Shown here: positions 16,505 to 61,704 of the stretch, piece by piece
Layout of the letters: each line of letters starts with the position of its first letter
Numbering within the stretch: position 1 is the stretch's first letter
Source of the DNA: Actinomycetaceae bacterium MB13-C1-2
Lineage (GTDB): Bacteria; Actinomycetota; Actinomycetes; Actinomycetales; Actinomycetaceae
Reading direction: 5' to 3'
Length of the DNA stretch: 64,000 nucleotides
NCBI GenBank assembly: GCA_035621235.1
Contig: CP141731.1
Coordinates: 682,001 to 746,000, forward strand
The notes under the pieces: generated by a model
Databases searched by the model: none
The model's input: only the letters and a program-made list of their open reading frames with translations
Told to the model about the DNA's origin: nothing
Made by a program: the position numbers and the translations under genes

Positions 16505-16554
16505 CGTCCAGCGTCGGCAACGGTGGGTGACCCTCTGCCTACCGGCCCCGCAAG

Positions 16555-16622
16555 TTTCCAATCAGATAGGGGCCCAACTCGACCGACTTCATCGGCGTGT
16601 TGGGCCCCTATCTGATTGGAAA
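16555..16622. repeat. Palindromic dispersed element, copy A
   Basis: Perfect 24-base arms (16555-16578 and 16599-16622) flank a 20-base centre that holds its own small hairpin (CCGA/TCGG). The arm contains CCAATCAGATAGGGG, also present in copies at 29274 and 61141, and all three centres contain CGGCGTGT. It lies between the convergent RidA and pntB genes and could act as a bidirectional terminator, but the conserved arm sequence marks it as one family of dispersed repeats. Confidence 0.85.
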
Positions 16623-16635
16623 ACCAGGAGAGTTG

Positions 16636-29273: not shown

Positions 29274-29363
29274 CCTCTTCTGGTTTGCCAATCAGATAGG
29301 GGACTTTTCGCCGCCCTTTTTGCGGCGTGTTGTTCCCCTATCTGATTGGCAAACCAGAAGAGG
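29274..29363. repeat. Palindromic dispersed element, copy B
   Basis: This is the best-preserved copy: perfect 30-base arms (29274-29303 and 29334-29363) around a 30-base centre with its own CGCCGC/GCGGCG hairpin. The outer arm is CCTCTTCTGGTTTGCC, and the inner arm ATCAGATAGGGGA is shared with copies at 16555 and 61123. It lies between the convergent pheA and diacylglycerol-kinase genes, 16 bp after the pheA stop. Reading the minus strand gives SPLSDWQTRRG, the same peptide that copy C contributes to GluQ. Confidence 0.9.
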
Positions 29364-40868: not shown

Positions 40869-42215
40869 ATGTGGACAAAGATGTTACAAGGAAAGGCGGG
40901 GCAAGTTGTCACGCTGGGCGCGTGCGCCGCGCTACTAGCTGGCTCAATAGCCGGATGCAGTGGCGGATCAGGGGATGGAAAAGAGTCTGAGACTGGCGAA
41001 GGCGGCCAGTCTGCCACTCCGTCTCCCAGCTCATCCGCAGAGTTGAGAGCAACGTGGTGGGGCGGAGATGTCCTGAATGCAGCGTTGCAACAATCAATGC
41101 AGGATTGTGCGGTCGTGGCAGACGCAAAGGTTTTGACGGAACCACAACCGTGGGAAGGATACTGGGACAAACTGGCAACCCAGGCCGCTGGCAAAAATCT
41201 GCCAGATGTCCTAATGCAAGCGGCCAGCCAACTGCCAGACTATGCAGGCAAGGGTGCGTTGCTTGACCTTACTTCAATTCCAGGTATTGATTTTGACCAG
41301 TTGGATCCCGGCGTCCGTGACTACGGAAACGTGGACGGAGAGACTTTCGCGGTTGTTGCAGCGACCAACGCTTCGGGCGTTGTTGCCAACACTGAAATGC
41401 TCAGCGAAGCAGGTATGCCGTTTCCGGATGGTCAGTACAGCTGGTCCGACCTGAAGCAATATTCCATTGACCTCTCCGACAAGCTTGGTGAGGGAAAATG
41501 GGCATTACAGGACTCCGCAGGCGACATGATCTTGTTCATTCTGTTTGTTAGGGACGAGACGGGTGGCGAATTCTATAGCGATGAGGGCATATTCCAACCG
41601 ACTTCGGAGCAGGTTGAGGCTTGGTTCCAGTGGTGGGATGACTTGCGCACAGCAGGTGCTGTCCCCCCAGCCGACGTGACCGCAGAAGCTGCAGGCGATC
41701 CCGGAAACTCGGCCATTGTCAAGGGCAATGCGGCAATGGGTTTCATGTGGACCCAGGACCTAACCAGCTTCCAGGGACTGATGGAGCCTGAGCTGGACAT
41801 ATACCTGCCGCCATTCAAGGACTCGAACCCATCACTCTGGATTAATGCGGCGAGCCTATGGTCGATAGCTGCAACGTCGCCGAGTCCCGAAAACGCGGCA
41901 GAGTTGATCAATTGTTTGGTGAACGATCCCCAGGCAGTAGAGACAAATGGAGTTGCACTAGGCATACCTCCTTCGCAGGCGGCCCGTGATTTACTACAGG
42001 GCAAGCTGTCGCCAGCAGACGAGAAGGCCGTTGAGTACATGAGTTTGGTGTCCGAGCATTCTCGCCCACTCAACCGTCTATGGCCGGCTGGCTTCGCCGA
42101 GCTGAGATCTTACTTCGAACAGACTGCGCAGTCTGTGGCCTTTGGAAAGGACTCCCCTCAGCAGGCGGCAGAACTCATCTTAACCAAGGCCGAAGAACTA
42201 GACGCGGCTCTATAG
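40869..42215 (+). CDS. Sugar ABC transporter substrate-binding lipoprotein
   Basis: This 448-residue family-1 solute-binding lipoprotein has a signal peptide with lipobox SIAGC (Cys at about residue 30) and a Gly/Ser/Glu linker. The mature part has the usual features (NLPDVLMQAASQLPDYAGKG, WSIAATSPSPENAAEL). ATG at 40869 follows GGAGAAAGC; upstream in-frame GTG and downstream ATG at 40881 are less likely. It heads an operon with two permeases, an FAD oxidoreductase and a GH2 enzyme. A stable hairpin follows it, probably raising its level over the permeases. No ATPase gene is present in the operon. Confidence 0.9.
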   Translation: MWTKMLQGKAGQVVTLGACAALLAGSIAGCSGGSGDGKESETGEGGQSATPSPSSSAELRATWWGGDVLNAALQQSMQDCAVVADAKVLTEPQPWEGYWDKLATQAAGKNLPDVLMQAASQLPDYAGKGALLDLTSIPGIDFDQLDPGVRDYGNVDGETFAVVAATNASGVVANTEMLSEAGMPFPDGQYSWSDLKQYSIDLSDKLGEGKWALQDSAGDMILFILFVRDETGGEFYSDEGIFQPTSEQVEAWFQWWDDLRTAGAVPPADVTAEAAGDPGNSAIVKGNAAMGFMWTQDLTSFQGLMEPELDIYLPPFKDSNPSLWINAASLWSIAATSPSPENAAELINCLVNDPQAVETNGVALGIPPSQAARDLLQGKLSPADEKAVEYMSLVSEHSRPLNRLWPAGFAELRSYFEQTAQSVAFGKDSPQQAAELILTKAEELDAAL

Positions 42216-60603: not shown

Positions 60604-61704
60604 CTAGGAGTGCTGTGAGGAGCTTGGCCTATGCGCTTCGAGACACGGCTCTAGCGAGAGTGGGGGTTCAAATCTGCACGGGGTTCTCGGAACTTCGCCA
60701 GGGTTGAAGTCGGCGAGTAGTTCCTCTGCCGTGGACGCCTCCGGGTTAATCGACTGGGCAAGGGCAAGAAGAACCTCCTCCGTCGAGAATCCTGCTTCCC
60801 ATAGTTCCCGCAATGTGACTGCCCCGTCGCGCTTGGCCAGTCGCACCCCAGTAGGTCCCAGAACGAGGGGGACGTGCACATAGTTTGGTTGCCATCCCCC
60901 GAGTTGCTGCGCCAAGTACGCCTGGGTCGGAGCGGACTCAAGTAGATCGTCTCCCCGGACAACCTGATCCACGCCCATCGCGAGGTCGTCCACGACGACT
61001 GCCAAGTTGTATGCGAATGCTCCGTCGCCTCGCTGCAAGACAACGCTCTCAACCAGCCCGGTGTACTCACCGTGAAGCTCATCAAGGATGGTCCAAGCCA
61101 TCCCTGTACGCCCCGCCCCTGGCTCTCCCCTTCTGGTTTGCCAATCAGATAGGGGCGATTTCGCCGTGTTTTTGCGGCGTGTCGTCGCCCTATCTGATTG
61201 GAGATTGGAGGGAGATCCGGGGTGCCACACCGAAAGGAGCTCTGAGTCGGGATTCCGACGAGGAAGAAGACGTAAGGCCGGCCTCAGTCCTCGCGAGGCC
61301 ATTTCGGAACGCCTTAGCTCCCTCTCCTTCTCCGAAAGTAAGTAGCAGGTTCCGGGATACGCCGACGGCGGAGTGTGGGCTGCGGAAGCGGCCTCGCGGA
61401 TATCCTTCCGCGAGCAGAAGCACTCGAACACCTGACCTTGGCGAGTGAGCGTGGCGAGGGCATCCTCGTACAAATCCGTGCGCTCACTCTGGGTAACTAT
61501 CGGACCATCCCAGTCGATGCCGATAGCACGCAGGTCGTCGATCTGAGATTGCGGGTCGCGGGCGCGTCCGCGGTCCAGGTCCTCAAGACGGAGGTAAAAG
61601 TCACGGTTAGTCGATCGCGCCCAAAGCCACGCGAGTAGCGCCGTCCGCAAATTGCCCAGGTGTAAGTCACCTGTCGGGGAAGGGGCATATCGTCCGGCAC
61701 TCAC
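60604..61704 (-). CDS. gluQ: Glutamyl-Q tRNA(Asp) synthetase with in-frame palindrome insertion
   Basis: This 366-residue GluRS-like enzyme lacks the anticodon domain and attaches glutamate to queuosine in tRNA-Asp. Visible motifs are SPTGDLHLGNLRTALLAWLW (HIGH-type), the zinc ligands FECFC and YPGTC, NLAVVVDDLAMGVDQVVRG, and LAKRDG in place of KMSKS. Relatives are about 300 residues. The excess comes mainly from a stretch near residues 155-195 encoded by the palindromic element (copy C), translated as QSDRATTRRKNTAKSPLSDW and then QTRRGE, plus a tail of about 25 residues. The frame stays open throughout. The start is GTG at 61704. Whether the protein is still active is unknown. Confidence 0.88.
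   Translation of the reverse strand: MSAGRYAPSPTGDLHLGNLRTALLAWLWARSTNRDFYLRLEDLDRGRARDPQSQIDDLRAIGIDWDGPIVTQSERTDLYEDALATLTRQGQVFECFCSRKDIREAASAAHTPPSAYPGTCYLLSEKERELRRSEMASRGLRPALRLLPRRNPDSELLSVWHPGSPSNLQSDRATTRRKNTAKSPLSDWQTRRGEPGAGRTGMAWTILDELHGEYTGLVESVVLQRGDGAFAYNLAVVVDDLAMGVDQVVRGDDLLESAPTQAYLAQQLGGWQPNYVHVPLVLGPTGVRLAKRDGAVTLRELWEAGFSTEEVLLALAQSINPEASTAEELLADFNPGEVPRTPCRFEPPLSLEPCLEAHRPSSSQHS
61123..61201. repeat. Palindromic dispersed element, copy C, inside gluQ
   Basis: The arms CCAATCAGATAGGG (61141-61154) and CCCTATCTGATTGG (61188-61201) pair fully; the left arm has one extra G next to them. The left flank CCTTCTGGTTTG (61129-61140) matches copy B. The right flank has diverged. 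The centre holds CGGCGTGT like the other copies. It lies within gluQ in a phase that leaves the reading frame open. Confidence 0.9.

Follow-up and report, generated by a model that had tools for sequence, protein, structure and literature searches.

A dispersed hairpin has been inserted in frame into gluQ, the gene of a conserved enzyme, in Actinomycetaceae bacterium MB13-C1-2; the insertion is real and well supported. In-frame palindromic repeats are already known as a kind of event, and the present case adds one, presumably translated, from an actinobacterium. The insert lies between conserved blocks of a catalytic domain, so that its effect on the enzyme can be measured. The explanation that we consider likely is that the palindrome belongs to a species-restricted, non-autonomous family of REP/MITE-like 3'-end hairpins, one copy of which entered gluQ, in frame, at a loop that tolerates changes in length. 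A sequence-only reading of this DNA had drawn attention to the palindrome; its observation is confirmed and its interpretation partly supported. The window, i.e. the whole stretch of 64,000 nucleotides that was analysed, corresponds to bases 682001-746000 of the single-contig genome of this bacterium (2,578,609 bases; hereafter G000).

The gluQ gene and its open frame

The product of gluQ is identified as a tRNA glutamyl-Q(34) synthetase (GluQRS) by NCBIfam NF004315 with a score of 276.9 bits (cut-off 250), and is matched by Pfam PF00749 in two stretches. A PHROGs scan returned a single family with no function assigned, and an AlphaFold2 model built from a 2-sequence alignment was left unused (pLDDT 37). 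As the sequence-only reading had stated, a dispersed palindrome lies inside the coding region and the frame stays open across it (Table 1), being read as ...SNLQSDRATTRRKNTAKSPLSDWQTRRGE.... The arms, at 61141-61154 and 61188-61201, have 14 nt each and are 100% complementary. The extent first proposed, 61123-61201, is revised to a core of 61 bp, or about 100 bp once the flanking stem is included. The 101 nt around the palindrome fold at -47.6 kcal/mol (z -7.45) with bulges in the outer stem, and the ungapped outer-stem score of this copy is 0.

Table 1. Coordinates of gluQ, its insert and the related palindromes in the window
Feature	Position	Strand	Basis or score
gluQ, tRNA glutamyl-Q(34) synthetase (GluQRS), 366 aa	60604..61704	minus	ORF; NCBIfam NF004315; Pfam PF00749; PDB relative 1nzj YadB
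Expanded loop, 56 residues (LPRRN...GRTGM), net ~51 codons above congeners	61099..61266	minus	Alignments with 30 relatives
Palindromic element with flanking stem, ~100 bp, ends approximate	61121..61221	no strand	Flank conservation and composition over 54 copies; fold
Palindrome core, 61 bp, loop orientation A on + strand, antisense to gluQ	61141..61201	+	87.2 bits, covariance model
Copy in a convergent intergenic spacer, perfect arms of 30 nt	29274..29363	+	94.2 bits, highest model score in the genome
Copy in a convergent intergenic spacer; matching G001 spacer ~100 nt shorter, without element	16544..16633	+	74.3 bits

A loop expanded in one lineage

GluQRS was aligned with 30 relatives, five congeners included: the best 29 of 58 relatives (L085-L113) and Pseudoclavibacter sp. 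13-3 (Actinomycetota; L083), the sole relative taken from a contig scan. The anchors ALRL and WTI, between which the loop is placed by the alignment within the catalytic domain, are separated by 57 residues in G000 and by 6 in 26 of the 30 relatives, among them all five congeners; the remaining four have 7, 12, 19 and 65. Over the blocks compared, no gap interrupts the alignment of the congeners G001, G003 and G005 before or after the insert, and the insert peptide is absent from all 30 relatives. Judged by these comparisons, the G000 lineage has gained about 51 residues in this loop. This exceeds the gain of about 30 residues given by the sequence-only reading. With its flanking stem the element accounts for roughly 33 of the added codons.

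Among the 30 relatives, none devoid of the repeat carries a homologous peptide of equal length, a case set beforehand as decisive against an insertion. The nearest in length is L085, from genome G035 of another genus, in which an unrelated, non-palindromic stretch of 65 residues occupies the same loop. In other species, the inverted repeats of the three most extended loops reach at most 6 nt, against 14 in G000. Since loop length varies among other species, the GluQRS loop evidently tolerates changes in length.

These long loops also bear on another history, in which the palindrome came into a loop that had lengthened earlier, on the pattern of L085 or L096. The element leaves about 50 bp of the insertion (~18 residues) unaccounted for, a part with no match elsewhere in the G000 genome, and other genera have unrelated loops of 65 and 19 residues at this place; the short 6-residue loop of the five congeners argues the other way, and we regard an older expansion as rather unlikely. 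A single source locus for the whole insert was rejected, only the palindrome part having matches elsewhere in the genome. According to the explanation favoured here, one copy of the family would have entered the gluQ loop between the conserved anchors, and as the insertion preserved the frame the palindrome would be read as part of GluQRS, supplying some 33 of about 51 residues.

The hairpin family

The two further intergenic copies that the sequence-only reading had counted are indeed present in the window, with exact 15-nt arms at 16558/16605 and 29288/29335, but they are a small part of a family occupying 58 sites genome-wide. Allowing at most 3 mismatches, the window has 11 arm matches where shuffles predict 1.41; the matches with 0 or 1 mismatch belong to the three palindromes, two arms each. 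A covariance model built from 54 aligned copies recovered the 58 sites in the 2.58 Mb of G000, the last of which, at 1381034, is borderline (E 8e-4). At E <= 1e-3 the model found no site in the five congeners, and a scan of the taxonomic family with stricter filters gave one positive genome in 213, that of G000, the other 212 being without the element. It was not encountered in viral contigs (one exact-pattern scan), nor in plasmids or phages (one blastn each), and Rfam had no match in the window above the gathering score except three tRNAs. For this family of oriented hairpins no published description was found.

The copies have arms of about 15 nt in common; in their loop, a CGGCGTGT segment that hardly varies confers an orientation on them. 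Conservation and composition of the flanks extend about 20 nt outside the core in the 54 copies. Across all 29 pairs of the helix, pairing holds in 78.9% of cells, though the sequences of the flanking stem vary. The covariation score is 0.205, compared with 0.146 (sd 0.009) for shuffles and at most 0.105 for slid partners; the latter are the better control, because related copies can beat shuffles without any structure. Pairing is thus retained while the stem sequence varies. The outer stems are kept in part only: ungapped, they score at least 11 in 7 of the 54 copies and 0 or 1 in 21, the gluQ copy among these.

Placement at gene ends and along the chromosome

Gene positions were obtained with a home-made caller based on codon usage, without annotation, so small or atypical genes can escape it, and gluQ itself was mis-called. 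By this caller, 33 sites lie in spacers between codirectional genes, 18 between convergent and 3 between divergent genes, with the mis-called gluQ among these 3; the other 4 overlap the end of a gene. With gluQ excluded, convergent copies outnumber divergent ones by 18 to 2 (p 4e-4 even at equal odds); in the window the caller gave ten spacers of each kind, totalling 1178 nt for convergent and 3245 nt for divergent pairs. The skew towards convergent spacers is real. A facing stop codon lies within 50 nt of the core in 40 of 57 copies and a start codon in 6 (the gluQ copy left out of both counts). Only the gluQ copy, 1 of 58, has an open frame with a coding signal on both sides. The family otherwise keeps outside genes, and gluQ is the single exception; the suggestion that such repeats offer a regular route to new protein sequence was not borne out. 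At gene ends the hairpins may act at the mRNA 3' end, in termination or in supercoiling, as REP/BIME do.

Four genes (at L033, L041, L058 and L061) were seen to end within the palindrome core, their last residues being derived from the element; in two of them the tail is PIR and the stop is the TAG of the arm.

Copies are also unevenly spread along the chromosome. The replication origin is assumed to be at dnaA (841879-842367 in G000). When the distance from there to the opposite pole is divided into eight equal bins, these hold 13, 12, 9, 10, 4, 5, 3 and 2 copies, and the half of the chromosome nearer dnaA holds 44 of the 58 copies (p 1e-4). The loop is opposite to the neighbouring gene in 34 cases and in the same orientation in 17 (p 0.024), a weak bias from which no conclusion is drawn; nor is one drawn from its orientation relative to replication, side A being lagging in 38 copies and leading in 20.

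Empty sites and mobility

Spacers were compared with a 400-kb sample of G001, in which 7 of the 58 sites had adjacent neighbours, and with a sample of like size from G002, in which 4 did; gaps were measured between alignment ends, and five of the eleven comparable spacers were read as sequence. Empty sites, a trait of MITEs, were found against G001 in two cases. At 698558 (window 16558) the spacer has 131 nt in G000 and 31 in G001, without the element; at 330135 it has 197 and 57 nt, and short matching stretches, recognised by eye, flank the element. Genes lying 149 nt apart at 1397876 overlap by 15 in G001. Compared with G002, the spacer at 2139666 has 312 nt against 119, and that at 2536831 has 127 against 110, a poor fit to simple insertion. 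The 748-nt G001 spacer matching 1797657 carries two unlike palindromes of G001's own. As for terminal inverted repeats, a further MITE trait, the arms are present in all copies used and the flanking stem in part.

The element would move by machinery that was not found in G000. No consistent offset indicative of a target-site duplication emerged in 54 copies, among which old ones could have lost it. A REP-RAYT system was ruled out, there being no REP-associated Y1 transposase (PF01797) in G000, while a control search matched 5 of 14 genomes. No long element with the same ends was found in the genome stretches examined, which comprise 54 arm pairs with starts 43-47 nt apart and 9 unpaired arms, 8 of them chance-like by eye; a parent may lie elsewhere or have diverged ends. 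Since neither a target-site duplication, nor a Y1 transposase, nor a long parent was found, the argument for mobility rests on the distribution of the copies and on a few shorter spacers. The family offers a compact system for studying the spread of short hairpins that have no visible transposase, and their action at gene ends; its useful traits are 3'-end placement, the dnaA gradient, covarying stems and occurrence in a single genome among those searched. The ninth unpaired arm, at 746874 (L044:2074), close to the copy at 746719 and followed by a loop-like continuation, looks by eye like a degraded half copy.

State of the enzyme

An insertion of this size could have crippled gluQ, the frame having stayed open by luck; the gene would then be a pseudogene in the making, or the enzyme would be split at the ATG that follows the insert (residue 202). 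Several observations lean this way. The gene seems dispensable, given that 23 of 58 relatives have only matches weaker than E 1e-19 (22) or none (1), and the weak matches of those 22 are as expected of GltX alone, taking them to be GltX. The caller starts gluQ only past the insert, whose codon usage is not coding-like. Against such decay, the frame is intact over 51 extra codons, the motifs HLGN, CFC and KRDGA are present across the two sides of the insert, and no well-spaced ribosome-binding site was seen by eye before the internal ATG. The branch length of GluQRS is ordinary as well: outside the insert it is 0.36 in G000, compared with 0.22+0.33 for G001. This part of the protein does not appear accelerated, which fits constraint, and the branch gives no date for the insertion. 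On balance we consider a crippled or split gluQ unlikely. A full-length, enlarged GluQRS is presumably made and active; its insert is most likely tolerated and near-neutral, and the strong hairpin in the mRNA perhaps lowers gluQ expression.

Comparison with known repeat systems

The sequence-only reading held that palindromes inside genes are known mainly from Rickettsia. The precedent is broader: in-frame cases have been described in enterobacteria and Neisseria too, and Wolbachia is cited. Its statement that no actinobacterial case is known stands for the open-licence PMC literature, in which none was recognised from titles and abstract openings among the matches listed.

The Rickettsia palindromic elements (RPEs) are hairpin repeats that measure about 100-150 bp and occur in frame within conserved protein-coding genes (PMC10969869; PMC2229807), and nearly half of the first ones reported lie in genes (PMC10969869). 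PMC2229807 describes an RPE-bearing guanylate kinase as translated and active with a changed substrate affinity. For an insert that is tolerated, this enzyme is the best precedent. The same source cites protein-coding repeats of Wolbachia by title. Like RPEs and the Wolbachia repeats, the gluQ copy is a hairpin repeat in frame in a conserved protein gene, a situation encountered in gluQ only among the 58 copies. Could the G000 family be of the Rickettsia type, with in-gene insertion in a preferred frame as part of its biology? Its size, its hairpin and its in-frame insertion into a conserved enzyme are similar (PMC10969869; PMC2229807). RPEs are often intragenic, however, whereas 1 of 58 copies is inside a gene here and most others lie near gene 3' ends, to go by the published descriptions. 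We find such a biology highly improbable: at gluQ alone does a G000 copy seem to behave like an RPE, and membership among the RPEs would be by resemblance only.

In-frame cases are likewise on record for the enterobacterial RU and Neisseria Correia elements (PMC2229807; PMC2759123). ERIC/RU-1, RU-2, RU-3 and Correia/NEMIS resemble the G000 family in being short, non-autonomous and mostly intergenic, with an occasional in-frame fusion. RU fusions are said (PMC2759123) to shun conserved domains and to lie at C-termini, whereas the gluQ copy is inside a catalytic domain; the four G000 gene ends within the core resemble this C-terminal pattern.

A further likeness concerns placement. REP/BIME of Gammaproteobacteria are palindromes that follow stop codons closely and often occupy convergent spacers. 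The G000 copies are similar in being extragenic and near gene ends, most of them no farther than 50 nt from a stop codon that faces them, as noted above; the likeness is drawn partly from PMC3733652. Unlike REP/BIME, the G000 elements are longer single units with an oriented loop, and the REP-associated transposase is missing.

Palindromes of a congener

G001 has a palindrome family of its own, about 87 nt long and with unlike arms (L176:12284, L180:4268, L181:9217, L178:880, L169:3169 and others). Searched on both strands, model R2 gave 41 hits in G001, 2 in G005 and none in G000, G002, G003 or G004. The nearest facing gene end of five G001 copies is 53, 148, 210 or 318 nt away, or none was present; the tight 3'-end placement of the G000 family is therefore not seen in G001. 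A loop motif, ATAAC[AG]G[CT]GTAAT, is common to G001 palindromes with differing arms (L166:14425, L176:12328, L178, L179:2691, L180:4304, L181:9253). With at most 2 mismatches, it is found 19 times in the 400-kb sample of G001; perfect arms of at least 9 nt enclose 9 of these hits (two of the nine being opposite-strand hits of one palindrome). The like-sized G002 sample has 3 hits, one with arms. A common origin of the G000 loop and of the alpha loop of G001 was considered and was not significant, 31 of 300 column shuffles reaching the observed score.

A change of arms around an oriented loop is seen in G000 and G001, and not in the G002 sample. One might imagine, tentatively and with considerable doubt, that species of this genus possess hairpin families of their own, with arms changing or exchanged around a conserved oriented loop; this would be a fast-turnover, structure-recognised mobile system with a chromosome-scale role (termination, mRNA 3' end or supercoiling), of which the gluQ insertion would be the protein trace.

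Separately, the palindromic 8-mer GTTGCAAC occurs 7 times in the 64 kb of the window (e.g. at 41084, 55266 and 62635) and is its commonest palindromic 8-mer.
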